From Rhizopus arrhizus (lineage: Eukaryota; Mucoromycota; Mucoromycetes; Mucorales; Rhizopodaceae): 64,000 nt of DNA. The number at the start of each line of letters is the position of its first letter. Position 1 is the first letter of the stretch. The stretch covers positions 1,550,001 through 1,614,000 of the forward strand of contig JAKZZE010000001.1 in NCBI GenBank assembly GCA_024220505.1. The letters are read 5' to 3'. The notes below the pieces were generated by a model. The model made no database searches, had not been told where the DNA came from, and saw only the letters and a program-made list of their open reading frames with translations. The position numbers and the translations under genes were made by a program. This document shows positions 1,523-38,495 of the stretch, piece after piece.

Positions 1523-2877
1523 ATGCCTTCTCATCTTGAAACTATTATTTTGAATCCCTCCTCTGATATGGTTAACTTAATCAAGTCTGTACCTTCTCCT
1601 GATGTATGCATTAACAACTCCCCTGTGGAACAGATTGCTCGGGAAAAAATACAATCTATTTCCAATCAGAAATGGGAATCTGACCAAGAAAATGCTTTCT
1701 TTGTTGGTGATTTGGGTGAAGTATTTCGTCAGCATTTGCGCTGGAAAGCTTTACTCCCTCGTATTGAACCTTTTTTTGGTAAGTCCTGCGTTAGGTATGT
1801 AGATCTTGAAGTCTTATACTTACGATTTTATTTTTTTTAGCTGTCAAATGTAACCCTGATCCCATGGTTATCAAGTTGTTAGCATCCTTAGGACTTGGTT
1901 TTGATTGCGCTTCTAAAGCTGAAATTCAACAAGTGTTGAACAGTGGTGTCGAGCCTAGTCGTATTATTTATGCTAACCCTTGCAAGCAAGCTTCCTTTAT
2001 TCGTTATGCTGCTCAACAAAATGTCAGTCGTATGACATTTGATAATTCTGAAGAACTCCACAAGATCAAAAAGCTTTATCCTGATGCTGAACTTGTCTTG
2101 CGCATTCTAACTGATGACTCTAATTCTCTCTGCCAACTGGGCCTTAAATTTGGTGCTCCTCTCGAGAATGTTGAAAATTTGTTGAAAACTGCAAAAGAAT
2201 TAGAATTGAACGTAATAGGAGTAAGTTTCCATGTCGGTAGTGGCTGTTTGGATGAATCTGCTTTTGGTGATGCTGTTATGCGTGCCAGAAAGGTGTTTGA
2301 TCAAGCTGAGCAAATTGGTTTCCATTTTACTCTTCTTGATGTTGGAGGTGGCTTTCCTGGTAACGATGTAAAAGATGGTATCACTTTTGAAAAAGTAGCT
2401 GCAATTTTAGGCCCTATGGTTGACTCTTTGTTTTCTCCTGAGATCCGTGTGATTGCTGAACCTGGAAGATATTATGTTGCATCTGCCTTTACTATCTGTG
2501 CCAATATTATTGGTAGAAGAACCATTGCTCCTAAAGCTGAAGGAGAGAAACAGCAATTTATGTATTACATCAATGATGGAATGTATGGTTCCTTTAATTG
2601 TATCCTATTTGATCATCAAATAGTTCATCCTAAAGTTTTGGTCAAGGATGAAAATTTTGTTTATGGTCAACAACTTCAAGAAGAACATTTTGAATGCAGT
2701 GTTTGGGGTCCTACTTGTGATTCTATTGATTGTTTAAACAAATCAACCCAGTTACCTATTCTTGAAGCTGGAGATTGGCTTTACTATGAAAATATGGGCG
2801 CTTATACTATCTGCGCTGCTTCTCAATTTAATGGATTCAGAAAGTCCCAAGTTTACTATACAAATACTTTTAACTAA
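1523..2877 (+). CDS. SPE1: Ornithine decarboxylase (two exons)
   Basis: This pyridoxal-phosphate enzyme converts ornithine to putrescine, the first committed step of polyamine synthesis, in the cytosol. Exons are 1523-1778 and 1841-2877, giving 430 aa, a normal length for the family. The 62-nt intron (GTAAGT...TTTTAG) splits a codon; joining it restores PFFAVKCNPDP, which carries the PLP-binding lysine (AVKCN). Further family blocks follow in order: GFDCASKAEIQ, IIYANPCKQ, the FHVGSGC loop, DVGGGFPG, AEPGRYYVASAF, and the C-terminal WGPTCDSID with the active-site cysteine. All key residues are present and the frame is intact. The start is the first ATG after the pyrimidine-rich leader. It converges with the NR2C2AP-like gene, leaving about 290 bp between the two stop codons. 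I see no antizyme gene nearby. Identification is very secure. Confidence 0.97.
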
Positions 2878-3166
2878 AGCTAAAATAAAACGGTTGTTTG
2901 CCTATTAAAAAAATGCTTTTTCATTGAGGACAGTCAATTGTGGATTCCGCTTAATATGCATTAACACATTTATATTTGCATGGGTTTGGGGAAAGAGGAC
3001 AATGTGTTTTCTATATATTAAAAATACACCAGAACATGAACATGAAAAGCTATACGGGCCAAATTATTTATACATGATTTATTGTCAACACGATAAAAAA
3101 AAATGCTTGGTGCATTCTGTCTAAGAGTTTACTGATCGCTGATGTTGCTCGACACCCTTTTTTGTT

Positions 3167-3698
3167 TTATACAATATTTTTTCCAATAACGTCTAATGTG
3201 TAAACTGTAACTCTGCCATAAAAGTCTGTGCTTTCTTCAAAAACAATTTTAAGTCTTTTTAAGCCCTCAGTCGGATCAAATGTGAATATCTGCTTAGAGC
3301 TGATGTCTTCGGGATACACAGTGCTGACTTCAACATTATAATCGTTAGGTGAATTTTCGATACTTCCAACTAGCACACACTTTTTGCCAGCAAAGCCTCC
3401 TTGAAAGGTAATAGCAACACTAGAGATAGAAACGCTGTTGGGAAAGTCTATTAGAATATGTTGAGGAAGACCCTAGATACTCAAAGTTAAAAAAAAATAC
3501 GAATTTAATGTATTTTTTTATTACTTGTTCTGAATTCCAACAAGTTTCTTCATTTCCATCTACTAAATATTGTTTTCCAAAGTTTGCATTGTCTCTATTC
3601 AAGACAGAACTCACTCTAAAAAGGTTGAGTAAACCTGATTCTTACAATTTTCTATACTTTTACTTTATACGCGTATCAGAATTAATCAAGCTAGTCAT
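3167..3698 (-). CDS. NR2C2AP: NR2C2AP-like (TRA16-type) discoidin-fold protein, three exons
   Basis: This is a homologue of the small conserved eukaryotic protein known in animals as nuclear receptor 2C2-associated protein. Its fungal function is not established, since fungi lack that receptor. Exons are 3664-3698, 3525-3615 and 3167-3472 (transcribed right to left), separated by 48- and 52-nt introns. The joined product is 143 aa, matching the family's roughly 140 aa. Conserved blocks are SSVLNRDNANFGKQYLVDG, EETCWNSEQG, VAITFQGGFAGKKC, VSTVYPEDI and the C-terminal STDFYGRVTVYTLDVIG. The first exon has only 35 nt; without it the SSVLNR block lacks an ATG. It lies in tandem with NAD kinase on the same strand, start codon 263 nt beyond the kinase stop. 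Identification rests on recognised motifs. Confidence 0.87.
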
Positions 3699-8890: not shown

Positions 8891-10389
8891 CTGTGGTTTG
8901 CGTTTTAAGTTCAAGGTTTCGGAAAATAGAATTCATATTTTTTCTGGTCAATCAAAAAGTTTCTAGTGCATTCAAACTTTTTTGTGCGCATTCAATTTTT
9001 GAGAGTGGCGAATCCATCCCTTACAGTTTTTTTGCTGTAGCCGTTTTGCTGCGTCTTCAATGCGGTCGGCTATCAACTCATTCTTTTTCAATGGTGTTTT
9101 ACAAACTTCCTTCTTGATTTTCGCCCAACATTCTTCAATGGGGTTCAGCATGGGCGAATATGGCGGTAAAAATAATGCATTGTGTCCATGGTTGCGAATT
9201 GCTTGGAACACTTTGGGTGTTTTGTGGATTGTTGCATTATCCATTACAATGTATATATTATGCAACCCCAGTTTGTTCAATACGGCTGCCATTTCTTCCA
9301 CAAAAAGCCAAAAGTGAGTTAAGTTGCTACCATGGGGGAGGTCTCTCTTAACACCATCTACCTTTTGCTTTTTGCGGCCTGAATTTGGAACTTGTTGGGA
9401 AACCGCAATTAAACCATATGCGGACAGGCAACCTAAAATACTCAAGTTGACACCCTCAGGCTAAACTTCCACTTCTGCAGGTAATCCTTTCATGGGCCAT
9501 GCTATAGGACGCACTATGTTTTTTAATCCTCTTTCATCCACAAAAACACTTCTTTTATAATCAATGTTATTCTCCGAAAGATATTCGACAAATTGTCTTC
9601 TTTGTTTCTTTGTGTCACCAGAATTTCTGGCTGCTAACATGGCTTGGATACGAGTAAGTGTGAATTCTAGCTTGTCGGTTATGTGTGCGATAGACAGTGG
9701 ATTGATTAACGAATAAATCCTCGAAAGTGGCACAAGGCAGTTCTGTAACATCCTTCACAGCGCAAGTATAGTTCTTTTCTAGGTAGTCTTCAATGAATTG
9801 AGGGTGTTCTTCCGTAACCTTAACATTATTTCCTTTTCTTTTAACTTCAGAGGCTAATTTATAACCTTGCAGTACTGCCCCTCCATTGGCTTTCCATTCT
9901 TTATTGAATATGTAACCCATGGCATATTCAACTTTAGCCTCTTTAGCAGATTGAGGAAGCTTCATATTCGTGTTTTGCATTAAAGAAATGAACTGAACGA
10001 CCTGTGATGTCTTGTATTTGATCGATGTCCAGACCATATTTGGAAGTGGTACTCTACCCAAATTAAGTTCGTCCATAGCTTGTGCTAGCGTTTCAACCTC
10101 TTCTTCCTCAGAGGATATAGAGATATCAGAAAGATTCTCTAAACGGTATAATGTTTCGATAGATGTTTCCCCTGTAGTACCTTTTGGTTGATATTCAATA
10201 GCTTCACCATCAATCGTGTCGCAGATAAATTCACAAAAAAGCAAGTAATGGTACAAAGTATAATAACACGAATTAAAAGCCTAAGTATTGGCGATACCAT
10301 AGATGGGCATCCATCACATTGTTCGACTTCGTTTCGCCAACATTAAGATTCTATTTTTCAAAATCTTGAACTTAAAACGCAAACCACTG
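8891..10389. mobile_element. Tc1/mariner-type DNA transposon, degenerate copy with TIRs and TA target duplication
   Basis: The left end begins CTGTGGTTTGCGTTTTAAGT and the right end, read on the other strand, begins CAGTGGTTTGCGTTTTAAGT; the outer 25 bp match at all but one position and similarity continues inward to about 42 bp. Both ends are flanked by TA (8889-8890 and 10390-10391), the target duplication typical of Tc1/mariner elements. Length is 1499 bp. It encodes a DDE transposase on the minus strand that is now broken. Confidence 0.9.
8972..10256 (-). pseudogene. Tc1/mariner transposase (DD34E), frameshifted
   Basis: The protein runs right to left. The N-terminal third is acidic (SSEEEEVETLAQAMDELNLG) and leads into a helix-turn-helix-like region. 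The catalytic part contains SVFVDERGLK (first Asp), IYIVMDNATIHK (second Asp) and PPYSPMLNPIEECWAKIKKE (Glu); 34 residues separate the second Asp and the Glu. The frame is broken by a 1-nt shift near 9680, between the TVYR and ITDKLEF halves, and by a TAG at 9459-9461 just after AEVEV. The copy is therefore dead unless it is mobilised in trans through its TIRs. Confidence 0.88.
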
Positions 10390-13320: not shown

Positions 13321-15961
13321 TCACTATCGTTTTTCTTCGGCTTGAAAACTTCCGGTCGTCCTTCTCCCATCCAAACTGCCTCAGAGATCGTCATCATATT
13401 AGTGGCGGCGTTTACGTCTCGTTGCCAAACCTTCTTACATTTAGAGCAACTGAGAACACCTTTGCCCTTAAAACCGGGTGTTTTGACTACTTTAAGATCA
13501 TCGAAAAAACAGGAGCTACACGTCTTTGATGTTTTAAATTCGTCAATCGTCACGACGATCAACTCACCAGCAGCTTCACGTTTTTTCAATGTTGCAAAAA
13601 ATTTTCCTATCACCCCACACCGAAGCCCTTTCATCTTGACCATATCCTTGCCGAAAACACCGGCACCAAAAACGACCAACGGGCACTTTTCTTTGTTTTC
13701 TTGGAAAGGAAGGGGCCTCCACTTCAACCTTTCAAAAAAAAAGTTAATAACATCTATTAAAGAAAGGCTAATAGCTTACTTCTTTTCGTCAGTGCGCAAT
13801 GATAACCCTTCATCTTCCTTCTTATCATTCTTGTCTTTCTTGTCTTTCTTGTCTTTCTTGTCTTTCTTGTCTTTCTTGTCTTTCTTGTCTTTCTTGTCTT
13901 TCTTCTTCTTCTTTCGCTTTCTCCGTGATCTGTTGTACTTGGCTGTTCCATGAGTCAACATGTTAACCATCATTTCCGGTGCTCTCTGTCGGCCTTGATA
14001 AAGCTGAAATCGGTGATGTGCAGTGTCTTTGCCATAAAAATCCAGGAGCTTGTCAAGGTGTGTTAGCATGTATTTAACATATTGATCATATGATCCAACT
14101 GCTGCTGTTTTTGGTGTGGGAATTTGGGACTCGATCGTCTTGATGCCAGAACACTCTTTTTTTAACTCGAGTTTTTTGCTATAGACAGTACTACCTGTTA
14201 AATGATAATATTCTTTTACAGAGGACTTCCGGATCTGCTTGGCTGAAGCTACGCCGACAACTGCCGTGAATAATGATTTACGCCCAGGGTCAAGGAACAT
14301 TGGATGATATTGATTGTGAACTTCTTCGTAGTTGAAGTCTTCGAGGGTTAATTCAACATCAGAGCCATTATTCATTCTTTTCTTTCGATAAAACAAAGTC
14401 AACAGAAAAGCCATCAGATTTGATTGTATTTCCGAATAGTATCTTGTTGTTTTCGTTGGGTGTGAGATCGTCCATGCTATTGTAAATTTAAGTAAAAAGG
14501 TTTATTATATAATATCATATCATACCTCAAACGTAATTTTTTGAAATTAAAAACACGGTAAAACATATTAAGTTGATTCTGGTAGCCTTGTGGCAGGGTC
14601 TCCTTAATAAAGGATGATAATGCATTGGCGCTTATATTCACGAACCTCCAATGCATACCCGGAGTTGGTGACAGGGAAAACAACCTTGGCAGCGGCAATC
14701 GCCTGACGTCATAGGCTTTGTGATTGTTGTGCTCGATCTCATATTCCGATAAGATGTTTGGCAGACAAGGAACAAAGCTGTTAGGAGATCCAGACAGAGT
14801 TGTAAGAGTCACTCGAGTTGGTATCATATTCTTTAGCGGCAGGAAGGTTTCATCAACAATTTGTTTCCTTTCTTTGGTAAATACAGGACCTTGTGGCCAT
14901 ACAGGAACTCCTTGACAAACACGTTGGTAAACGTAAGGGACAATTTTTATAACATCTGAATGATCCATTGACTATATAGTCTTAGTTATACGTGCTTTTT
15001 ATAATAGTATCCTACATACTATGAAGATATTTTGTGTTTTATAAAATATATACTTGCATATCCTTGATTCAAAGAGTTCTACTATGCTATTAGTGTATGT
15101 TGTTTGTAGTTGATTGGCCGCTTCCGATATACAATGGCTAACACCATTAGCAAGTTTCTTGTCATAAATAATATTAGGATAACTGTTTTTAAAACTATTC
15201 CAGTAGTCAAGTAATCCGTGCTGTAAATAGATGCCATTCGTGACCCGTTGATTTCTTATAAGTTGTGAGATTGAATACCAAAAATTCTGTTCATATATTT
15301 TATGGGGAATGGGACTATCTAAACGGGCCAAACTGAGGATATAAAAATTCGCAAAAAGCTGTGATCTGACTACAATTTTTCGCACGTCTTCACAAGCAGA
15401 AACAATTTTCGATTTAAGTGTATTTTGGTAAGTACTTTGTACACATTGATCAAAAGGTAGCTTTCGCGTGTATGCTTTATAATTTGGCCCCAAGTGCCTC
15501 AGAAACACTTCTTTTTTTGTTTGCTTATGGTTGGGGCAAGCAGGTGAACGAGATGACTTATGCCCTTCTTGTTTACAGCTATTACACTTAAGTTTAGTCG
15601 TATTGCTACCAGTTCTGGATCTTTTCGCCTTTTTCTTGTTCTGTTTTATTTCATTGGTCTGTTTTCTTTTTCTAGAGGTACCAACTTTTTAAACAGAAAA
15701 ATTAGGAAAGGCATACATGAAAAGAGTATAATGCTTACCATCATTTGCTGTGGCTTCGACGTAAAATTTGCACTTATAAGACTGTTTACTATAATGACCT
15801 GGTTCTTTGCAGTCTTTGCATAATGAGCCTTTTTATTGCGCGTTAGCTAACTGAAATATCGCGCTTTTTTATTTATTACCACTACTGCTGCTTGAAGCGC
15901 TATATTCTTGTCGTTTTTTAATGACTTCAGCTTTTTTATGTTGTATGATTGATTTATACAT
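13308..15961 (-). CDS. Fanzor: eukaryotic TnpB-like RNA-guided nuclease, six exons, one frameshift
   Basis: Fanzors are eukaryotic relatives of TnpB and Cas12 that cut DNA under an RNA guide. Exons are 15880-15961, 15739-15828, 15020-15684, 14526-14971, 13780-14476 and 13308-13728; introns are 48-54 nt. The product is 799 aa if one extra base is ignored. Two Cx2Cx4Hx7C knuckles (residues 31-47 and 91-107) and a basic linker lead to a helical recognition-lobe-like region. Next come RuvC-I (MFLDPGRKS, Asp490), a long KDK repeat, the block KCPLVVFGAGVFGKD, VVTIDEFKTSKTC (Glu723, candidate for the rearranged RuvC-II Glu), a zinc ribbon (C730, C733, C754, C757) and RuvC-III (QRDVNAATNMM, Asp764). 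An AAAGAAAAG run near 14390 shifts the frame: either a pseudogenising indel or a sequencing error. No transposon ends were found around it. The start codon is tentative. Confidence 0.85.
13829..13912 (-). repeat. 9-bp coding minisatellite (Lys-Asp-Lys units) in the Fanzor gene
   Basis: On the plus strand the unit GTCTTTCTT repeats about eight times in a row, preceded and followed by imperfect units. In the Fanzor frame it encodes a (KDK)n tract between RuvC-I and the RuvC-II region, bordered by KKKKK and EDEG. The length is a multiple of three, so copy-number changes keep the frame. Confidence 0.9.
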
Positions 15962-17044
15962 GTTGGTACAAAATGTGGAAAAAAAAGGATGATTATACAG
16001 ACACCATTTTTTTTAATAGCATTATATAAACTCCCCTTAATTTATCATACTTATTTATCATTTTTAATTACTACTCGAATATCTCTCTTAAGTGTATACC
16101 CAGTACACGTTTGTACATAAAAGTTCACCTTTTTTATGAGACACATTAACTAATTGTTTATGACAGACATGAAAACTAGTGAAAACATTAGCTTTCTACA
16201 TCCGCCATAATCCGATCCTATATCACTATATACGTTTAAATTTTGATTTTTATTTAATAAAAAGAATTGGGACGTTCAAGTAAAACTGAACAAGAGCAAA
16301 AAAACTGCTTTTGATAATATTTGGTAATAAGAAAGAGGCGAATAAAACTAAGAAATTTTAGTAGCGAAACAAGTACGTTTAAGAGAGAAGCTATTGAATG
16401 ATTACAATGGGCAAGTTTAAACGCTAAAAGCCTTATAATAATTGCTTTAATTTGTTATTTTCAATATTTTTATCAATTAAACAGTCTATTAACCTTGTAA
16501 TACACACAGAATGCTTAAGCTGTTTCAAGGACTATTTTCTTCAAGACTTGCCAAGGGAAAGTAATGCTTTAAACTCTAATTTAATGCTTTGCTCTATTTA
16601 GACAAATCCCTTAGTTGTGTAACGTGTCGTGTCAAATTAGATCCCTTTTTCATGTCGGAGATATATAAATATTTGTTAGTGTGAATGTATTGCCAGAAAT
16701 AAACTCTTGGGTCATTCTTCCTTTTTTGATATGGGGTCATGTTGTCTTGTGGATTTTAACGGACATAATTAAAAAAAAGTCAATGGCTTTTTATTTATAA
16801 AGCACAATGCATTTGCATGTTTTATACTCTTATTTGATCTACTAAATTACCTGCAATTTACATCAATTTAAATACAAGTTACTTACGTGACGATGTGTAA
16901 CGAATCAATAGAAAGAAGGACAATGTGGCCCTTTTTATGTTCAGTTCAAAAAAATAATTTAAGTTTAGGATTAATTTTTTTTTTTTTATGTATGTTTAGG
17001 ATTAAAGCATTCAACTTTTTTTTTTTTTTGTAAAAAAAGCATTC
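15962..17044. other. Intergenic, upstream of Fanzor; nothing supported
   Basis: AT-rich DNA with no long frame. It may contain the Fanzor promoter. I looked for inverted repeats that could pair with sequence beyond the EF-1alpha pseudogene and found none. Confidence 0.4.
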
Positions 17045-17060
17045 AACTTTATCTAATATT

Positions 17061-17252
17061 TTTTTTTGTATGAGGATTTTATTCGGATGCCGCATTTTTA
17101 GCTGATCATCATAAGAAACATTTTTTAATAACAGGGCTTAAACCCACGAACAAACAAACAGAAAACGACCATGGAGATTGGAACTAGTGCCACCAGACGA
17201 GAGACTAATCCAACAGAAAGAACTTGACCACTTCGCTAGGGGGCTTTGCCCC
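17061..17252 (-). mobile_element. tRNA-derived SINE, copy 1 (family A)
   Basis: It is flanked by the perfect 16-bp target duplication AACTTTATCTAATATT (17045-17060 and 17253-17268). Read on the minus strand, the head begins GGGGCAAAGCCCCCTAGCGA and holds an A-box-like TAGCGAAGTGG and a B-box-like AGTTCCAATCT at tRNA spacing; the 3' end is A-rich. A near-identical copy lies at 36206-36376. Confidence 0.85.
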
Positions 17253-17271
17253 AACTTTATCTAATATTGAT

Positions 17272-17557
17272 ACAGTTGATCCAATAAATTATGTCGTCCG
17301 GGCCGAACAAAATGTCGCCCAATCAGAAATAAAATGTCGCTTAATTAAAAGTAAAATGTCGTCCAATCAGAGATAAATTTTCGCTGCCATAGGAATAAAA
17401 CGTCGCTCTTGGTTAAAATACTTTTAAAAAAGAATAAATGTCGCTTTTGATTATAATATCTATCCCAAGCCCCTCCTCCTCCTTTTCCCCTGATTAATTA
17501 CCCAATTAAGAGATACGCTTATCATTCTCCAAGAATACCCTCCTGATCCACAGTCTT
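17272..17557 (+). repeat. Left terminal inverted repeat with 22-bp subterminal motif array
   Basis: TCG cores recur at about 17293, 17314, 17336, 17358, 17380, 17402 and 17440. The inner part, which includes the ATACCCTCCTGATCCACAGT stretch, has an open frame shared with the right repeat. Homology to the right repeat ends abruptly after CCACAGTCTT. Confidence 0.9.
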
Positions 17558-20500
17558 GAACTTATTCAAAGGTTAACGGAAGCTGAGACTTCCAAAGAAA
17601 TTGTGAATGCATTGATAAAAAAAAGAACATTCGATCAAACAGCCAAGGTGATGCAAAAGCTAAATAGTACAATGCAGACTCTAATTGCTTTATTGGTATT
17701 AACAACATAGGCTCTTACAGCAATCACGGCCACAGCATCAACAAGTACATCATCAACAACCGCAGCATCTTCAGACAGAACATCAGTATCCACAGCATCA
17801 GTAGCCACAGTATCAACGACCTCATTATCAACGACTGAAGCATTAAATATCCAAAATAAAAAATTTAAGGTAAAGAATTCGTGTTTGCAGCTTTATAGCC
17901 ATTAATAAACATAATTATAGCTCTCTGCAAAAGACAATGTACATATTGGCAATTTAAGAATAACACTAGGAGAGTTTCTAATTGAATACTATGAAAATTT
18001 GTTAATCGAATCACCTAAGGACAAATATTTTTCGTAGTAAGTATCATTCAAGACTTGAATCCATGGTATCGCAACAACATATTTATTTTCTTTTAGCCTT
18101 TCTCAAAACTTCATCATTGATATCTCTAACGAATCCCAGAAATCACAGTTGAACTATTTTGGTGTTGAAACGACGACTATCATCAAAGAAAAATATACCA
18201 GAGAACTTACTGAATGTGTTAATCATAACATTACCGAAATTACAGATTTATTAAAAAAAGTAAGTTTATAATAGGGCCAAATTTATATCTGGATTTCTAA
18301 CTGACCTATTTATATATTTGTATAAAGAAAGTAAATGCCCAAACTTTGATAAAGACCCAAATAAGGCTTGATTTACTCAAACCCGATAATATCCGTACAA
18401 GATATATAAAGAAAATTTATGACCACATGTATGTGTATTGCAAATAAGTTTTTTTTGTAAATAATGCATAACAAACAGACTCTTCTTTATAGTCTTTCCC
18501 TTCTTTTTTTTTTATAAGGAGACAAGTCTCTGAGTTTATTAAGCAACCGATTTAAAAGGCACGTGATATGTTTTTGTAGATTTTAAGGATTTTAAATTGT
18601 TGTTGTGTTTTTGTTTTATGAAATGATTTAGTTGAAAGAGAGATCACCCGTATAAGTGTGAGATCGACGTCGAGATGAATAACACGGCAGTACTAAATGC
18701 GGAAGAGGTACAGGAGAGATTCCATCGGAAATGAGTTGTTCTTGCAAGGAGGCAGACAAAAGTTGATTAGCAGAACTTATTGTGGCAGAAGTGGTAAAAG
18801 GACGTTGATCGAAGATCGAGGACCAATGGTTGCGCCAGACAGCTAACAAGATACAACCAAAGAAGATTGAAGGCTCTTGAATAGCAGTGGGGCGGCAAGT
18901 AGGAAACTGCAAGAGAAAAAGGGCACATCGTAACGAAAAGGTCGAGAAAGGCTGTTCAAACTGCGAGACCCAGAGGGACGACCAAACGGCAAGTTTGCGA
19001 GGACATTCAAGGAGGAAATGAGATGGTGTTTCTTCTGGTGCAGTGCAAATATGACAAATTTTTGACGTCCAATACAGGTTCGATCGACAAGGCAGTTTGT
19101 TGTGAAGTAGCCTGTACCAGATGTCACGGCTTTGCGGTCTAAGAGGGAAGCGCCATAAGGCGAGCCATTTGGAGGAGGTAAGATTCGGATAAAGGTTTGA
19201 AGAAGGTACAAACGGACAACATAAACGACGATAACGTCGAGAGGTGAGACGGAGGCGGACCCCAGGATGATCAACTAAGGACATTGTAACCAGAAAAGGG
19301 GACATATCGACTAGAGAGTGGGTCACTGGAATAAACGATGAGTGAGGACGCAGGAAAGCTCGAATAAAGAATGGTTGAAGCTTCAGTTGATCAAGTCGAA
19401 CCCACTTTAAAAACCGTTTAGTTAGGTAGGGGTGAATGGAGATTTCGGCGGGGAGCTTCGGTTGTAATCTTCCCTTGGTAGGATCGAATTTGTAAGCCAA
19501 GGAACAAGGCAGCTGAGCCATCGATTTCGGTAATGGACAAGAGGACGAGAAAACAGAAACATCACTTAGCTTGAGGCATAGAGCTGTTTGAGGGTTGATG
19601 ACGACCTGGTCAAAGAGATGCGGAAGATTATCCACAGCCGTGAAAAATAAGGAGAAGACACCGTCAAAGGATTGGGCCAAAGCCTTAGGTCGTAAGGAAG
19701 GAAAAACAAACGCCTGGCGATAATCCAAAAGTATAGGCACTTGGGACCCAACTGGTAAGGAATGCCTCAAGAGATGATCGACGAGCAGAGGCAATACAAC
19801 GGACGATTGTAACGAACGATGGTTCCAAAAGTCTGAGGTAGGAGAGCAAGGACAATCATGAAGAAGAGGCAATAACCATCTCAACTGTAGAGCACTTTGC
19901 TGGATGTGAGGATTGAGAACCCCCAATCCACCTTTGTTGCGAGGAAAGCACATGGTCTCAAAGCTAACCCTTGGCGATCTTTTGGCAGAAACAAATCCTG
20001 ATATTTGAGATTTCAGTCTTTTGAAGAATAATTTTGGAACGGAAAGAATGCGGAGCACATGCCACAATTTGGAGGGAATCAAAGAGTTTAAAATAGTAAC
20101 ACGACCCCGAACAGACAAAGACCGATGAGAGTGCAGTTGCACGCCAGTCGTAATTTTAGACAGTAGTGAAGTAAGATAAGTGTCACGTTGGGCAATGGAA
20201 GAATGGAGAGGGAAGCCCAAATAGATGACCGGTTCACGAGATGAGCTGTCATGCCAGGAGTGGATCTGTTGCTGCAAGAGAGGTGTCCGCCAAATACGCT
20301 GATAGCATAAGCGAGAACCTGAGAGGGAGACTGCTTCTGTTTTATTAAAGTTTACCTTTGCATTGGAAGCCTTAGCATATAAATTGAGATGCTCATGTAA
20401 AATATTGAGCTCGTATGGATCATTTAGGAAACAGACAACGTCATCCGCGTAGGCAAGCAATTTCACTTTGGAGCGAGACTCCAAGTCAGGGGGAGAGCAG

Positions 20501-21484
20501 ATAGACCGTGGAAGCTGGAATCCAGAGATATGAGGGCTTGATAAAAAACGTCGCAGGAGCGGCTCGAATGCAAGGTTGAACAGAACCGGCGAGATAGTCT
20601 TTCCCTTCACGTTGACAGGTCACATTTATTCAACAAGAACTCAAGAAAAGGATATTCTGAGTCCGATTACCAAATGAAGTTCTGGGGTGTTGTATTCGAG
20701 TCTTATTTCTACAGTAATGAATACATGTTGCATTGGTATAAATATAAATATATATATATATATTACTATTTTTTTGTCAGATCAAAGTATTAACATTTTG
20801 TATAGGGGCGACACCGTTTCCACGCCATGTAAAAAAAGTCATCTGCGTTTCAAGGCTGACCTTCGTATCGTAGTAATGTCCAACGATGAAGATATTGTTG
20901 ATGGCACAACTGCTGAAATCGCAAAAAAGGCCGCCCCTAAAAAGCTATTCATGGATAAATTGAAGTCTGTACTTGGTACAAAATGTCACATGAACAATTT
21001 CCTTTTGTCGATTCCCTTTATACCTGCCAAAGAAATTAAGAATGTAGTGCTCCCCATTGTACAAATTATGGGTTTTGATGTTCGCGTATACACTCTGCAA
21101 TTGGCCAACAGAGGCGTATATATTTTACAAGATCTTACTTCTTTCTCATTTCCAACAAACTATAACTCACTGAAACATGGTCTGTCAAAAATTATCAACG
21201 GTTTGTCCTGCATTGAAGTAAGATTTAATTATTACATCTTTCGATTTGTGTAATGATATTTTCTTTTATAGTCCTTGCTCATTGAACTTAAGAACATGTA
21301 TGAAACATACCAAATGGATGATGGCGATGATATGTCTAGAATACTCAGTGGCACCAGCAACAAAAAGAAGACTCCAATCAACTGTTGGACAACAGAAGTC
21401 ATTTGGAACGAGAAAGACGATGGCGATTTGGAAGAGGAGTCAAATTCTGTTGATAATGATGACGATGACGACGACGATCTTTGA
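17552..21484 (+). CDS. Multi-exon gene of unknown function inside the TIR element
   Basis: I do not recognise a characterised family, although the pattern recalls repeated hypothetical proteins of Mucorales. Proposed exons: 17552-17647, 17711-17869, 17921-18036, 18097-18259, 18328-18428, 20598-20735, 20806-21217 and 21272-21484. Phases agree at every junction, giving at least 465 aa; the first intron is uncertain and the N-terminus is unresolved. In order the protein has a Ser/Thr/Ala-rich segment, helical blocks (GEFLIEYYENLLIESPKDKY, LTECVNHNITEITDLLKKK), then QMKFWGVVFESYFY and LHWGDTVSTPC. These are followed by RFKADLRIVV, PKKLFMDKLKSVLGTKCHMN, VLPIVQIMGFDVRVYTLQLA, GVYILQDLTSFSFP and GLSKIINGLSCIE, and a C-terminal acidic run of eight Asp. 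A LINE occupies its fifth intron. Its place between TIRs suggests a transposition protein, but no DDE or other catalytic triad is obvious. Confidence 0.6.
18504..20593 (-). mobile_element. 5'-truncated LINE with RT (YADD) and zinc-finger tail, 15-bp TSD
   Basis: It is flanked by the perfect duplication ATAGTCTTTCCCTTC (18489-18503 and 20594-20608). The 3' end is an A-tail (T-run at 18504) followed by the family end TTATAAGGAG. One long frame (stop at 18628) is open to the truncated 5' end. It starts inside the reverse transcriptase palm (ISPVLFNLAFEPLL) and includes LLAYADDVVCF, the thumb region, and a C-terminal zf-RVT segment (WYRLLHNKLPCRSNLYW, CHICTAPEETPSHFLLECP). The endonuclease and fingers are missing, so the copy cannot move alone, but the remaining frame is uninterrupted over about 650 codons, which implies recent insertion. 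Confidence 0.93.
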
Positions 21485-22200
21485 ATTATGAGTATATCAA
21501 CGATATGCTTGCCATATACAACCTCCACCACTATTACTACTACTATCATTATTATTACCATCATTACTACTACCATCATTACTATGTTTAATAAACTTAC
21601 TTTTCTCTTTAAGAATTATGCCCAATATCATCTCTTTATTACTATTAACCCTCTATATTATATTCTTATGCTACGCCATATATATTACTACCTTTTATGC
21701 TTGACCCTGAATATGAACTTATAACACTATTTTCATAAATTATTCACTTTTTTATTATTATTTTTTTGGAGCAAGAAGTGGCGGTAAAACGCCCTGGCTA
21801 TTGATCATTGTTCTAAATTTAAGAAATCTACCTTTCCCTCCCAAATATACAATTTAATAAGCTAGCTGGAAGGATATTAGAGTTTGTTTGTTTTTTTAGG
21901 GAGAGAAAGAGAGAGAAAGGGCAAAGTTGAATATCTATATTCAGATCAATCTGTTGCACAGTTAGTTGTTAATTCCACTTTCTCCTTTACAAACATGGAA
22001 AGAATAGACAACAGTATGTATTACACCTTATTTTGGATGTGGTTTTTTTTTGTCTATTTGTCGAATTACAATTTTTTTTTGTAGTGGATAAATTTATTCA
22101 TATAAAGAGTTTCTAAAATTTTAAACGACCCATATCGCAGAGGGATGGGGCGAGATCACTGGTGCAATGGAGAGAACGAGGGGAATGGGGAAATAGTAAA
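21485..22200. other. Spacer inside the TIR element
   Basis: It holds an ATT/ACC trinucleotide-rich microsatellite (about 21520-21590) just after the unknown gene, then AT-rich sequence. The microsatellite yields open frames that I regard as artefacts. Confidence 0.5.
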
Positions 22201-22346
22201 AATAGTGGAAGGGGTAGAAAGAAAATAACGGACAATACTAATCATCATGAACTAGACTGCTGTCAAGGAGGTGTATACTTTTATATATATATATATATAA
22301 TGGAGGGAGAGAGAGCACAAGCATCAATACAAGGAAAATCCGGAGA

Positions 22347-22775
22347 CTAGTCGATAACTGAGGTAGTAGTAGCCGAGAGAAGAGAAAACTGAGAAGTAAC
22401 TCCGTAGCATATGTGATCAGGAAGGAATGGGGTATCATCGATAACATACTTCCAGCAATTCTTCCACATACAGTATTGGATAGTGGAGACTAAGGTGTAA
22501 AAACTGTTAAGAAGGGATGTTGGAATGATTGATGGAGCTTCCAACTTGTGGAGAGTACGAAGGAGTTGTTCATTAGAGAATGTTAACCATGGGAAGAAAC
22601 AACCAAGGGCAAAGGTCCAAATAGGTCTTTTCATAGGGCAAGTGCAAAGGAAATGTATTGCATTTTTTTCATTGGTGCGACATAGAGAGCATAGCGTATT
22701 GTTACGCCGGTTTATCTGGCAGAGATATTGGCCAAAGGGGAGTTTGTGACACAGTACGCGGTACCATAAGTGTTG
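22347..22775 (-). pseudogene. LINE C-terminal zinc-finger (zf-RVT) remnant
   Basis: Right to left the frame reads WYRVLCHKLPFGQYLCQINR, then LCSLCRTNEKNAIHFLCTCP, then PIWTFALGCFFPWLTFSNEQ. This is the W-R-L-x(n)-C-x2-C-x(n)-H-x3-C pattern at the end of LINE ORFs. Only this end is left. It is diverged from the LINEs at 18504 and 36125, so it belongs to another subfamily. Confidence 0.7.
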
Positions 22776-23270
22776 TGATCACAGTAATATCCTCATATTA
22801 CTTACACATCCTTTCTATACGACTGCACTATTTTCAACACTGAAAGCTAATAATTACTAATACACAATCAAATGTTATTTATATTCAATACAATCCTCTG
22901 GTTATGTCTCAGCGCGATAGCACTAGCAGTACAATCAGGTCCTGGATAATTATAAACGTGTTTCCCGCTTTTAGATCGTGATGTATCAAGGTCCGTGCAC
23001 ATATCACCCAATAAACAATACCGAATCATAGTTCCGGATATACAGTCATTGATAAAGGCTTTTTAACTGGCTTGGATAAAAATAAACAGAACGTACGATT
23101 AGATTAGAATCTGACAGAACAATAACATAGACTTTTATACTCAGCATTACAATTATATATAAATAGAGACATATTTTATTTAATAAAGATAAAAAGAATA
23201 TTTTGGCGGGCTGATTGACTTATCTAGTTTTTTTTACCTACTTTTTATATTTTATTGTGATCAATCTATT

Positions 23271-23578
23271 TTATATAGCTGTGATCTCAACAATAAGTCT
23301 CTGGGCGGCTTCCAGAAACATGATATGAGCGTCTTCTGAGGTATCGCCGTTATCGGATAGGATGAATCCTTGGAGCCGAGCATCCTATAGATGGAGGATT
23401 TAAAATGATACCAACGCGAATCAGTGTTGACCTGCGTAAGTAGACGTGTTGTAGGAGAGAAATCAGAGTCATTGTTGAGCCGGGTTGCTATATAATTCCA
23501 CCATGAAGACTGTGGATCAGGAGGGTATTCTTGGAGAATGATAAGCGTATCTCTTAATTGGGTAATTAATCAGGGGAA
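23271..23578 (-). CDS. Short ORF starting in the right TIR, possibly two exons
   Basis: From within the right TIR the frame gives LITQLRDTLIILQEYPPDPQ, then SSWWNYIATRLNNDSDFSPT and TRLLTQ. A 37-nt intron (23395-23431) or a frameshift then leads to DARLQGFILSDNGDTSEDAH and a LEAAQRLIVEITAI end. The composition looks like real coding sequence, but the length is small and the family is unknown. The same LITQLRDTLIILQEYPPDPQ start exists in the left TIR, where it ends after one more residue. Confidence 0.35.
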
Positions 23579-23813
23579 AAGGAGGAGGAGGGGCTTGGGA
23601 TAGATATTATAATCAAAAGCGACATTTATTCTTTTTTAAAAGTATTTTAACCAAGAGCGACGTTTTATTCCTATGGCAGCGAAAATTTATCTCTGATTGG
23701 ACGACATTTTACTTCTAATTAAGCGACATTTTACTTCTAATTAAGTGCCATTTTATTTCTGATTGAGCGACATGTTGTTCGGCCCGGACGACATAATTTA
23801 TTGGATCAACTGT
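23506..23813 (-). repeat. Right terminal inverted repeat with 22-bp subterminal motif array
   Basis: This is the reverse complement of the left repeat with few mismatches. CGA cores lie at about 23619, 23657, 23679, 23702, 23723, 23745 (one base changed), 23767 and 23789. It has one additional 22-bp unit (about 23722-23743) compared with the left repeat, as if a unit had been duplicated by slippage. Confidence 0.9.
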
Positions 23814-23840
23814 TTATTTTAGTCGAGAAAGTAATTTACT

Positions 23841-26100: not shown

Positions 26101-27165
26101 TATAATAAAGAGAAGAGAAAAATGATACACTTGAAAAGAAAAGAAAAGAAAAAAAAGAAAAAAAAAAAAAAAAAAAAGAGGAAGGAAAGAGAAGTGATAT
26201 GGAAAAAAGATTTTTTTTTCCTTGATTATATAGAAAAAAAAAAAAAAAAGCTGGTGTTACGGGTATTGGCGGGTATCAATGATAGGGATTGGTCAAGTTC
26301 AGATTTCAGTTTCGGATTATAGAATGAATAAATGGGTTTCGTTATTAGAATCTCCTTTTTTTTTTTTTTTACTAGGGCCAAAAATAAAGAAACAAGAGAT
26401 GATGTATTATTAAGAATTTCTTATATTTTATCTTTCAAAATCACACGCTGATTAAATCAGTATTCAATGTCTTATTTACTATTTTTTTTTTTTTTTTATA
26501 TAAAAGCTCAAGAAATTCTATTGTGACAAACAAATCGTCATTTATAGTAAAATCACAGGGACAATCGATTCTAAGAAACAGAAACAGAAATAGAAACAGA
26601 GACTACTTCAATCTACATGATGATTATCATATATAGTAACAGTAATGGGATCTTGTATGTAAACATAATGTCATCATTCTCTACTTCTTAGTTTAGTTCA
26701 TTTTTTTCCCCACGATTTCCCTTATTCCTTTTTGAATTGATTGGGCAATATTTCGCTCACGATGCCAATATGCGGATATTCAAAATAAATTGCGGACTTA
26801 AACTTCATTTCGCACCTTCTTTTTTCTCCATTCGCGCCCTCATTCACTTCCAAATTGCGGTTTTTAAGCCTAATTTGCGCTTTTGATCTGCACCTAATGA
26901 CTCGAATGGATGCATCACGCAACTTAGAATAAATAAGGAAATTGGACATTAAAAAAATCTCCTTTGATACCAAAACAGAAAAAACTTAAAAAAGAGTGTA
27001 ATGTGGGATATGTATTATTTTTGTAAAAGTTTAAAATTTATTGAACAATTAAAATTATGTCACAAGTGATATATCAAACAAAAGCTTGGAGCCTTGCTGA
27101 AAAAAATTTATAGCTCCTGATAATGACCACAGTGTGTCATTGAGAACACAACGCCAGTGAAATTT
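26101..27165. other. Intergenic with a regular GCG-core array at 26750-26920
   Basis: Poly-A/T runs lie next to the kinase. From 26750 the cores TTCGC/TTGCGG/TTTGCGC recur at about 26752, 26772, 26792, 26811, 26833, 26857 and 26877, so roughly every 20-24 bp. This resembles the subterminal arrays of the 6.5-kb element in style but not in exact sequence. The 83-codon frame across it is probably a by-product of the repeats. Confidence 0.45.
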
Positions 27166-27890
27166 TCAAAGTGATGAAAAGGCAAACTCTAAAGGGCGAA
27201 TAGGATCTGGGCAAACTGTATACCGATTATCGGGAGAAGAGAGTATTGCAAGAGCAGACCAAACGGAGGTTGCGTCAGGGAATTGATCTGTCAGGCGAAA
27301 CAAAGACAACACGGAGGACAAGAATTGACACTTTAGTGAACACCCTACCACAAAATGAAATGTGTCTTCAATATCACTGTGACAGATACGGCATATAGGA
27401 GAAGCACATGAGGTAAGGTTTCTCCGGTGAAGTGTGGATGCCACGGGCAGACTATCATGCAGTAATCTCCACCAGGGGGTGAAGGCAGAGCTTGGAATAT
27501 CGAAGGCCATGTATCTAAATGCACTGTAGTTGATGTGGGCATTGAAGGAGGACCCTGAGGTATCGTGATGTACCAATCAAAACGGATGGTAGCGTCTGAT
27601 TGACCAGAAGACGGGAATAATTCACGAATGACAGCTCTAGCATGAGTTGATGTCGTAGTTCGAACTACAAGTTGATCATTGTCAGAATTCCATAGAGCGA
27701 TATCAGACAAGATATACCAGAGTGGAAGAGAAGAAGGTATGACATTGGATATGCGACCCGAAATTGGCAGGTTATGAAGTAAACAGCCAGATAAAGGGAG
27801 GCCTAAAACCCATCGTGGCGACCAACTCGGGTTAGGAACTAGCTGTGGCAGTTTCTTGACTAGGACACACAGCGTTTTCAAAGTAGGCAC
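27166..27890 (-). pseudogene. LINE 3'-end fragment (zf-RVT region), frameshifted
   Basis: Two overlapping minus-strand frames make up one decayed product: PSWSPRWVLGLPLSGCLLHN and DWYITIPQGPPSMPTSTTVH in one, then WRLLHDSLPVASTLHRRNL and SPICRICHSDIEDTFHFVVG in the other. The latter is a zf-RVT motif. The frame changes near 27480. RT is absent. The segment is diverged from the LINEs at 18504 and 36125. Confidence 0.7.
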
Positions 27891-30358: not shown

Positions 30359-31645
30359 TCAAAGTTGCTCTTTGTTATGGCATTTTTCCAAACATTTGTG
30401 AGAATGCCTAACAAAACCTTCAAAGTCGCTCAGCTTCAAGCTATTCGAAGTCTCGCTGATTCTTGTCATTAGTGTTTCAGTTTCCAGGAACTTGTTACGT
30501 TTTACTTTACTCTTAACCACTGACCAAAGTTGCTCAATTGGATTGAATTCAGGAGAATAGGATGGCAAATAGGCGCAACGGTAGCCGCGTGATTCAATCT
30601 ATTTTGCTATATCAATCGATATATGGATCGGAGCATTATCCATCACGAGGTAGTGGCCTTTCATGTTTGGATACTGGTCCATTTCATCCATTGTGGCTTT
30701 TAGAAAACTTACACAGTGTCCCGTAACCGTCCCTTTGCTCACTTGTCCAACGCCTTCTCTTTGCTTTCTCTTTTTATTGGGTGGAGGCTGAGGAAGTCTT
30801 AGGCTACATTTAATCAGACCTTGGGCAGAAATCGCGCCTAAAATGGTTGTTGTTTTTGCTCCTGTTTTGAGAACTATAACCACTGCAGGAGAACCCTTCT
30901 TTGACCATGCCATGCTACATTTCAAATTAACATGAAACACAGATTCATCAAGAAAGACGCAGTTAGTTGTAAAACCCATGTCTGTTTTCTCCCATTTACG
31001 AATCCAATCCAGGCGCTCTTGGATCTTTTCCTCGCTGTTACGGTCTATGGGATAAAACCGAGCTTTTTTGAGAGACAAATTGCTATGATTTTTTATAACA
31101 TCAAATAAAGTACTTTTGGATACTTTTAATCCTATGAAAATCTGTCAAAGATGTTTCATCACATCGTCTAAATCAGCTGATGGACTCTCATCAATGCACT
31201 CAAGAATGGCCTTTCTGTGCTCCTCATTGAGAATACGTGGACGACCAGTCTTACTTTGTTTCTCAAAGATACTATCCGGATTGTTTGCATACTGTTTAGC
31301 CCATTTTTGTGCCGTACAAACGTAAATCCCAAGCCGTCTTGCAGCAGCGGCAGCGCTCAGACATTTCTCAAACAACAACTTGAAAAACCTTACTTTATCT
31401 TGATCTGAATAGCGTGTATAAATGCGATTGACCGATGCTTCCCTCATGGCGACATCAGTGTTAGATTTTACCGCATCTTCGACTTGCGTTACTTCTATCG
31501 TTTTGTTCTCTTCCAAAGACAGTTGAGCTAAATATTGTATATGCGAGTTCAATGTTTCAAGACAAAACTGCTCCTCGTCAACAATATAATCCATTGGCTC
31601 AGGTTTTCCATACTCATCGACAACGGAACCTTTTCCCATTTTCAT
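30359..31645 (-). pseudogene. Second Tc1/mariner-like transposase, one frame with two stop codons
   Basis: The whole 429-codon frame is in one phase. It is interrupted only by TGA at 31142-31144 and TAG at 30599-30601. The N-terminal part contains a helix-turn-helix typical of the group (CLSAAAAARRLGIYVCTAQK, KQSKTGRPRILNEEHRKAIL). The DDE core shows CVFLDESVFHVN, YLVMDNAPIH and PSYSPEFNPIEQLWSVVKSK. Terminal repeats could not be identified at either side. The sequence differs from the element at 8891, so it is a separate family. Confidence 0.85.
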
Positions 31646-32400
31646 ACAAGAATTGAATGTTCATGATGATATATTTCCCAGTATAATTGCAAAAGAAAAA
31701 AATAAAAAAAAACAAATAAGTGTTTATTGCTCCTTATATATCCAAACGATACCAAGGTTTCCACAACAAAATATTCTTGGCAAGCATATGATTTTTCAGC
31801 GGATGATGATTCTACTTTTCGTACACCTGAATTTGATTTTTGCCACTGGCGAACTCACTTTTCATACAACCCCGAATTTTGTTCTTCTTGTCGAGCGCAT
31901 TCATTTTCCACCAAAGGCGAATCTACTTTCCGAAAAGAGTGTATTCAAGGCCTCTACCTATTTTGTCAAATCAATTATCCTTTTAATTAGGTCTAATTGC
32001 TACCTTTTTTTTTTTTCTGCTTGTGTGTATTATTGATCATCACACTCACTAGAAAATTTTGCTAACATTGATATCAGCTTGCAGTCCTTGATTGAGAATG
32101 ATACGCTATTCCATTTGGTGCTATTAGTAACAATGGTTTCTCTATTGTGTCTATCAAAAACAATCAAGATATTGTATTCAACTTTATTTAAAAATTACAT
32201 GTATTATATGTCATTTTAAGCCAATGGTATCATTTGTTGAAAGAAAAGTTTGTTTGTTATCACTACAATTAACTGTAATTGCTATTTATTCGAGCGCTTT
32301 ATGTGTCAGGAAATTGAGTGAGCTTGTCATTAATCCAAGCTGTCTTGCATAAAGCTTTAAAATGAGACTTTTTGTTTTAAAATTTAAAAATAGGGGGTCT
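31646..32400. other. Intergenic, nothing supported
   Basis: Short frames only (for example 31727-31990 on the plus strand) with no motif. It may include the unidentified 5' end of the neighbouring Tc1/mariner copy. Confidence 0.4.
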
Positions 32401-36376: not shown

Positions 36377-38495
36377 GTGTTTGGGTTTTTAAATTTTTCG
36401 ATGCTTTAGGAATTTTGAGTTTTTTTTGTTGTTTTTCTGTATATGTGAAGGTTATTTGAGTTGCGTAAGTTGTTCAGAACTGAATGTTAGGTAGAGGAAC
36501 ATGAGAAATTTTATGTTGTACGAGGTGTTCGTCAAATGATTTCTGAATGAGTGCACAGGAAGCAGTAATTACCCGAGAAGGAAGAAAAGGGACAGAGTCA
36601 AAGACCAGAAATCAATGAGCACGCCAAATGGCCAAAAGAGTGTGACCAAAGACCACAGAAGGATGACAATCAAGTACACCAGATGTAAGGGTAGGAAACT
36701 TGAACAGAGTCAGAGCTGAGAGGACAGCAGAAGGAGTAAAAGTGGAAGTTGTAAAGAATTTTAACCAAATTGCTTGCCAGACAGCTATTTTCAAAGGACA
36801 GTGTAAAAAAAAAAATGCAAAAAGTCCTCTTCATGCAATCCACAAAGTTCGCATCCGGCATATGGAAAGAAGTTGGGGCAGACTGGATGTAGGAAGCTCT
36901 TGAAAGGAAGCTTTTGATGTAACAGCCGATACCAGACATTACGACTTTGATGAAGCAAAGGAAATGACCAAAAAGCAGACCATTTGACAGGTAGCAGATT
37001 ATATGGTACCTTGATTGGTTTCTTGCTAAAGATGTAACTATGTCGATATAGTTTTGTCGAGAGAGCACGTGTTGGGTCTTCCTGTTGCAGTGACAGAGAT
37101 TCCAAAAATGGTGTTGCATCAACATCATGATGTTGAACTGGAATAAAAGGAGGTGGCGCAAGATGAGAAAAACGGTCTGGGATGAACGCACGAACAAAAA
37201 ATGGATGCAGCACTATAGAGCCATTGTGAACTAATGTAAGAATACGCTTGGCCAAGATAGGATGCTGAGATAGTTCTGTTAAAGCTTTGGGTCGAAGGAC
37301 ATGTGGTATAGGGTCAATTGTATATGATATACCAGCCAGCAAGCGATTGATTGATCGGAAGATAGTTAAATCATCAGTATTTGTATAAATGGAAGCCATG
37401 GGTAGGCGGACACACGTCTCGGGATTGACCACCACATCTCGGTAATTCTTGGGAAGGAGATCTATACTCTTGAAGAGAAGAGAGAAAACACCATCAAGAC
37501 GTCACGTGGAAGAAGGACGGAGATCCGGAAAGAGGAACGACAGTCTGAAATCCGTATATTCATACAGTTGACCATTATTGCGAGCATTGTTGGAATGCCT
37601 GGTTTCAAAATGGTAGAAGAAAAAATCCATGAGACGAGGAAGAACGATTGAATTGCGAATGGCAGCTGAGGACCAAACTGGAGAAAATGGCCAAAATGGA
37701 GATCTTGTCATGAGAGGCATAAGCCAACGAAGTTGGAGTGCTCCCTGCTGAATATTAGGATAAAGTACTCCTAGGCCACCTTTCGACCGCGATAAACACA
37801 TAGTTGACAAGCTGATCTTCAGGAGCATTCGGTACGTGAGAAACGAAGACATGATCGACTTTAGCTTATCAAAGAATGCAATAGGTGCAGAGACAAAACG
37901 AAGTACGTGCCATAACTTTGAAAGGATAAGCGTGTTAAGATGGTAACCCTCCCTCTAACGGAAAGAGACCGCTGAGAGTGAATGTTATAAGCCGATCGGA
38001 TCTTGGAGAGAAGCTTTTCCAAGAAAATATTGCGTTGTGAAATATTGTTGCTGAAAGGAAAGTCAAGGTATACAAGAGGTTCAAGAGAACGATTGTCATG
38101 CCAATGCGATATCCCATAAGACAACAGCGGGGCTCGCCAGATGTTGAGGTAGAAGGTAGAAGAACCCGATAATGACATTATTTGAGTTTTATGGTAGTTT
38201 ACCTTGGTATTAGATGCATGAGAGTAAGTTGTAAGACGAGCCTGTAGCACAGCAAGATCAGAGGGATCACGAAGTATACAAACAACATCATCAGCATATG
38301 CCATAAGCTTTACATTCTGTAGATTCGAATCATCCGGATAAGATATTGAGGGGCGAGGTAACGAGTATCCAAAAAGTTGAGGATCAGCCATAAGTTGTCG
38401 TAAAAACGGTTCAAAAGCCAGGTTGAAAAGAATGGGAGAGAGCGGATCTCCTTGGCGAAGTCCTCTTCGTTGGCTCACCGGTACAGACAAATGAC

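Follow-up and report, generated by a model that had tools for sequence, protein, structure and literature searches.

What kind of element is the 6.5-kb unit at positions 17272-23813 of the Rhizopus arrhizus DNA analysed here (the window: 64,000 nucleotides, positions 1,550,001 to 1,614,000 of contig JAKZZE010000001.1, assembly GCA_024220505.1), in which long terminal inverted repeats (TIRs) enclose a multi-exon gene? An initial annotation, made from the letters alone, saw in it the layout of an autonomous DNA transposon, perhaps of an undescribed superfamily, or a member of a large repeated gene family. Our analysis indicates that the window probably holds a transposase-less, gene-carrying element of the Tc1/mariner type, and that genes of this kind probably recur as cargo or accessory genes of such elements; the picture is that of a cargo arrangement met several times over, and hardly that of a new transposon class.

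The terminal arms belong to a Tc1/mariner family

The boundaries of the element are marked by the following features:

17272-17557, + strand: left arm, an end of a Tc1/mariner family with subterminal repeats of about 22 bp (inverted-repeat search and alignment)
23506-23813, - strand: right arm, the inverted left arm at 99% identity with an additional 22-bp unit (inverted-repeat search and alignment)
17271-17272, no strand: TA at the left end, of the Tc1/mariner target-site type

The TIRs of about 290 bp first noted around the gene are real: in a gapped alignment the 286-bp left arm agrees with the 308-bp right arm at 283 positions and differs at 3, with a single indel of 22 bp. The periodic subterminal motifs are likewise present, as units of about 22 bp each, with one additional unit in the right arm. 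Between the arms the inverted-repeat search recovered one block of 252 nt (97% complementary) and another of 112 nt (88% complementary), a similarity far above chance, the remaining inverted repeats in 8 kb being A/T-rich runs of at most 50 nt. The exact termini read CAGTTGATCC... from 17273, with the complement at 23812, so that the outer sequence of the element is (TA)CAGTTGATCCAATAAATTATGTCG. The left arm stops exactly where homology to the interior gene starts (17557/17558). The inner half of the arms, from about base 143, has no other copy in the genome, which, together with their 99% identity over 286 bp, indicates that one arm was copied from the other.

The first ~143 bp of the arm are repeated in the genome, with 18 matches including the window's own two. 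We read 15 ends of this family (hereafter family A), namely two each in the window, at C8 and at C33, and nine single ends; TA is present at 14 of the 15, the two C33 ends being near-identical copies. Behind eight of these ends (C30, C40, C23, C35, C9, C1:952296 and both at C33) lies one family of transposase, in pieces 71-100% identical to the query, while no such transposase is found behind the other seven (the window's two, the two at C8, and those at C3, C2 and C1:196208). Its catalytic stretch matches DDE_3 (PF13358) with an E-value of 3.3e-5, which is below the Pfam cut-off, and a relative at C40:1302370 lies above that cut-off (73 bits versus 28.6). This kinship of the TIRs with copies bearing a DDE_3-type transposase identifies the arms as Tc1/mariner ends; at eight of the 15 ends it is the pairing with a different known transposase that the initial annotation had named as counting against its reading, and a new superfamily is not supported. 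The window and C8 elements have the same (5') end on both sides.

The six single-ended copies with a transposase (C30, C40, C23, C35, C9 and C1:952296) share a common 5' end, and the pairwise matches between them end at differing 3' points. The region C33:82700-99300 (L011+L012) forms an inverted repeat whose arms measure 2.25 kb or more, are 99.7% identical and start at the edge of the fetched DNA; each arm includes a Tc1 copy and its TIR, and the structure is either a palindrome or an assembly artefact.

The interior gene and its predicted nuclease fold

The gene between the arms has this structure:

17558-21484, + strand: eight-exon gene of the predicted PD-(D/E)xK-fold family, 456 amino acids, start codon missing (splice search and annotated Rhizopus proteins)
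17558-17647, 17711-17869, 17921-18036 and 18097-18259, + strand: exons 1-4
18328-18428, 20619-20735, 20806-21217 and 21272-21484, + strand: exons 5-8
20619-21217, + strand: exons 6-7, encoding the nuclease-fold core

When GT-AG junctions were searched, 16 combinations stayed open, coding for 452-458 amino acids; we chose the one agreeing with annotated relatives. The interior multi-exon gene of the initial annotation thus stands, with eight exons and 456 amino acids in place of 465, and the acidic tail ascribed to its protein is present in the chosen model. The gene matches two Rhizopus arrhizus proteins almost perfectly, P0011 with 100% identity over 184 residues and P0020 with 99.3% over 146. 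P0020 begins MSSDTNEL and continues ELIQRL; from the latter motif onward it differs from the spliced window model at one of 150 residues compared. Its homology in the window begins at 17558, the first base past the left arm; the + strand from 15000 to 18000 encodes neither SSDT nor SDTN nor DTNE, and there is no in-frame ATG between the upstream stop and 17558. Hence, the left arm occupies the place of the gene start, which appears to have been lost there, a distant spliced start being also conceivable. With its start codon missing, this copy has probably begun to decay, or else yields no more than a truncated product.

The earlier observation that the protein fits no known transposase group and shows no clear DDE motif stood, and a check of the fold added to it: a structure model of a relative has a restriction-endonuclease-like, PD-(D/E)xK alpha/beta core, and the family is accordingly predicted to adopt this fold. 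The core is recognizable by the motifs KFWG.., LHWGDT.., DLRI, D(G)..AE.A, KLF.DKLK, KCH.NN and P.VQIMG. Most of the 22 sequences compared retain the D of DLRI and the E of GE/AE; the K following this E is not conserved, and the next helix has an invariant K. This helical lysine could replace the missing active-site lysine of the (D/E)xK signature. A family of Mucorales hypothetical proteins thereby gains a predicted fold and a candidate active site. The gene product is not a transposase, and the likeliest role of an intact member would be that of a DNA nuclease benefiting the element, as through the cleavage of empty sites or of rivals. We found no transposase match inside the window element and no DDE match among the interior frames tested, which indicates that it is non-autonomous; of the proposed autonomous DNA transposon, the layout with long TIRs remains.

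Distribution of the gene family

Two genome searches with 38 and 41 matches were merged to 48 places, the lowest-ranked of them weak, bearing out the large repeated gene family that had been offered as one possibility. Matches other than the gene itself show 24-55% identity. All relatives with a named source come from Mucorales, and in some cases they are closer between genera than within the genome, as in Mucor mucedo (71-77%) and Helicostylum (78%), while a Mucor circinelloides protein encoded on a 2.85-Mb contig is, in its N-terminal part, 90% identical to P0020 over 134 residues, linker included. Such closeness hints at transfer between genera. Two Mucor mucedo proteins, P0001 and P0003, are 92% alike over 169 residues; their contigs are of equal length and perhaps one and the same, which would point to a recent duplication.

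Recurrence of such genes between terminal inverted repeats

Two gene places were read because they adjoin Tc1 matches among those listed, and both fall within TIRs of another kind (family B); the arms of a third element, at C8, are of family A:

C1:1493754-1497122: element of TIR family B, with 36-bp TIRs (34/36 equal) and TA at both ends
C40:1299604-1303885: element of TIR family B, with TIRs of the C1:1493754 kind (19 bp at one end) and TA at both ends
C8:924805-934490 (L009+L010): 9.7-kb element with TIRs of ~599 bp that are 99.2% identical, and TA at both ends

The C1 element contains a transposase that breaks off midway (DDE_3, E = 0.0061, below cut-off), to which the second half of a nuclease-fold gene is joined. 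The C40 element contains a DDE_3 transposase in two reading-frame pieces with a distant member of the gene family facing it, 27% identical to the window's domain (E = 4.7e-4) and 29% to P0012 (E = 3.5e-10). A frame beside this gene resembles what we take to be a Tc1 C-terminus, and gave no transposase match in Pfam; the C-terminal tail of a Phycomyces nitens relative is 45% identical to it over 44 residues (E = 2e-8 in a one-pair comparison). The gene in the C8 element belongs to a second dispersed family, with 49 places in the genome, which was defined from this very copy. By eye, the second family (L009:1659-2531 and relatives) has an order of secondary structures similar to that of the nuclease-fold family; its structure model was poor and no fold was assigned. 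Since relatives lie between Tc1-type TIRs at the C1 and C40 places, the window gene may not owe its position to chance alone.

We scanned the genome with patterns of both TIR families, obtaining 44 ends for family B (2 with the reversed-pattern control) and 27 for the window's family A (control 4). Eight inward-facing pairs of ends lie within 20 kb of each other, and five of the six spanning at least 3 kb hold a gene of either dispersed family: the nuclease-fold family in three (the window, C1:1493754 and C40:1299604) and the second family in two (C8:924805 and C40:1691118). Within 5 kb of the 71 ends there are 13 end-gene pairs inside and 2 outside, with 0.69 expected for each; as paired ends count one gene twice, these amount to 8 loci inside and 2 outside. 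The independent inside loci are C40:1693623, C35:83133, C33:78597 and C37:456734, of which C35:83133 is a weak match with stops and C33:78597 also counts among the two outside when measured from a TIR of the other family; a single end was found at each of C33:78597, C35 and C37:456734. At C35:79503 (L016, 5004-5023) a family B end stands directly before a family A end in the same orientation.

Several observations weigh against this reading. The enrichment is partly circular, four of the eight inside loci (the window, C8, C1:1493754 and C40:1299604) having contributed to the definition of the families or the TIRs. Neither gene family occurs in the C33 pair (15.5 kb, part of the larger inverted repeat) or in the two short pairs of 1363 and 560 bp. 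Just four of the 48 nuclease-fold places (the window, C1:1495401, C40:1300724 and C37:456734) lie on the inner side of a family A or B end within 8 kb; the other 44 may represent genes of the host, remnants, or cargo carried by different TIR families. Inverted repeats were found neither at nine gene loci of 3.2-3.4 kb (L023-L031), which were not chosen for Tc1 and are shorter than the 4-6-kb elements, with the TIR end of L031 (C37:456734) falling just outside the stretch read, nor at one 2-kb gene locus (L066). Of the 48 places, 5 have a Tc1 match among those listed at a distance of up to 2 kb, in mixed orientation, a mild excess over the 1.07 expected. A separate comparison of the C40 gene with the window's domain gave no match at E 0.001. 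The fold assignment has its own weak points: Foldseek alone gave no match below an E-value of 0.001, and model confidence is low near those strands that bear the candidate D and E (predicted local distance difference test, pLDDT, ~50). As for the arms, the right flank at 23813-23814 is TT, as against TA on the left, and the six single-ended family A copies with a transposase lack a matching 3' TIR over the 1.9-5.9 kb read, like one-ended or deleted copies.

Alternative explanations

The first alternative to be considered is capture in the Pack-TIR style, in which the two families would simply be common dispersed genes in regions rich in transposable elements, picked up with no role in the element. 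In its favour, each family is large, with 48 and 49 places respectively, and divergent, and the fold of the second is not settled. Nevertheless, the long pairs hold the same two families in five of six cases rather than mixed host genes, although the pair interiors were searched for these two families only and some were read, other cargo being hardly looked for. We consider such capture doubtful.

Rather unlikely, too, is a chance composite, in which opposed Tc1-type ends came to lie by or in an ordinary gene of the host, one from a large family, where transposons abound, so that no gene-carrying element exists. Tc1 matches are indeed very common, with at least 225 merged places in the genome (two lists), and the left arm interrupts the coding sequence just past codon 8 relative to P0020. 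The few Tc1 matches near gene places, and the 44 places lacking a nearby end of the two TIR families, would also fit, as would C2:1382945, where an open member of 372 codons (L066) has a Tc1 piece (13-225) just upstream on the same strand and no inverted repeat in the 2 kb read. Against such a composite stand the near identity of the arms including their unique inner half, the excess of inside over outside pairs, and the two further TIR pairs, with TA at all ends, that enclose members. At L027 on C4, which like L066 was not chosen for Tc1, a Tc1 transposase piece (2739-3427) likewise lies just upstream of a nuclease-fold gene on the same strand.

Going beyond cargo, a two-gene Mucorales lineage of Tc1/mariner could be envisaged, in which a DDE_3 transposase and a PD-(D/E)xK partner nuclease act together in mobility or upkeep, with the pair or the nuclease passing between genera. 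We regard this as improbable; if true, it would imply second-strand cutting in the manner of TnsA or a Fanzor-like cutting of empty sites. Finally, a new superfamily with the PD-(D/E)xK protein as its own transposase, for which one might cite a predicted fold capable of cutting DNA and relatives in several Mucorales genera (60-90% identical over parts, with a Ser/Thr-rich linker in one case), is very improbable in the face of the DDE_3-type transposase at eight of the 15 ends, the transposase sequence beside the gene in the C1:1493754 and C40:1299604 elements, and the lack of any nuclease-fold gene within 8 kb inside the family A ends other than the window's two.

Possible origin and comparison with known systems

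For the preferred reading, a gene-carrying Tc1/mariner-type element, the following course of events may be proposed. The PD-(D/E)xK-fold gene would lie between two opposed copies of one end, the 5' end, of a Tc1/mariner (DDE_3-type) family, the arms having perhaps arisen by inverted duplication of one end through fold-back or template-switch repair in a failed transposition. The unit could then be mobilised in trans by the DDE_3 transposase of its relatives acting on the TIRs, and genes of the family would be carried repeatedly as accessory or cargo genes, comparable to Fanzor1 in Mariner elements.

Excerpts of PMC3627910 describe Fanzor1 as carried by Mariner elements, some with the accessory gene alone between Mariner TIRs at TA sites, and mention algal-virus Mariner elements with GIY-YIG or restriction-endonuclease genes; a Rhizopus oryzae Fanzor1 gene is placed there in a MuDr-type element. 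As far as these excerpts go, the likeness consists in Mariner TIRs, TA sites and an accessory gene for a nuclease that accompanies or replaces the transposase, whereas here the family has a predicted PD-(D/E)xK fold and about 48 dispersed places, and the arms are long and nearly perfect. Pfam scans of the exons and of a set of relatives gave no match to a Fanzor/TnpB protein (OrfB_Zn_ribbon). Fanzor1 provides a precedent for accessory nucleases carried by eukaryotic DNA transposons, and the recurrence described here, if true, would add a second, unrelated nuclease-fold family within Tc1/mariner TIRs of early-diverging fungi, a new case for asking if transposons enlist DNA-cutting enzymes to maintain themselves.

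With typical Tc1/mariner elements bearing a DDE_3 transposase the window element shares the TIR family, the TA at its left end and, in its relatives, the transposase behind the end; it differs in having no transposase and the same (5') end as both arms. Of the TA duplication it shows TA on the left and TT on the right, while C1:1493754 and C40:1299604 have TA at both ends. Pack-TIR and foldback-type derivatives are non-autonomous, with a gene piece between long inverted arms, as in the window, the difference being that the same gene families recur here. In Tn7, the PD-(D/E)xK nuclease TnsA is found next to the DDE transposase TnsB; the side-by-side occurrence of the two kinds of protein is similar, and a part of the nuclease-fold protein in transposition would here be conjecture. 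Tc1/Mariner is the largest group of transposable elements in the Mucorales genomes covered by the excerpted text of PMC7928374. The fungal proteins of the CRN/SPOK type, with restriction-endonuclease-type or nuclease domains and links to mobile elements and toxins (Zhang 2016, as quoted in PMC5289972 and PMC12693581), are alike in combining nuclease-type domains with ties to mobile elements; Pfam showed no kinase or NTPase domain in the exons here or in the set of relatives covered.

Other features of the window

The rest of the element's interior contains the following:

18504-20608, - strand: 5'-truncated long interspersed nuclear element (LINE; RVT_1, zf-RVT) in intron 5, poly-A side at 18504
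22350-22778, - strand: LINE fragment in the right interior, zf-RVT below the Pfam cut-off
23261-23569, - strand: open frame leading from the right arm into the interior, where it matches only itself in the genome

The LINE of intron 5 (RVT_1, E = 1.2e-10) is flanked by a 15-bp target-site duplication (18489-18503 and 20594-20608); its insertion is later than the element and makes up 2.1 kb of the interior, which implies that the unit earlier measured about 4.4 kb. The open frame at 23261-23569 has no Pfam match. Elsewhere in the window, further LINE matches lie at 36438-38454 and 27094-27549, and Tc1-transposase-like matches at 30371-31720 and 8978-9337.

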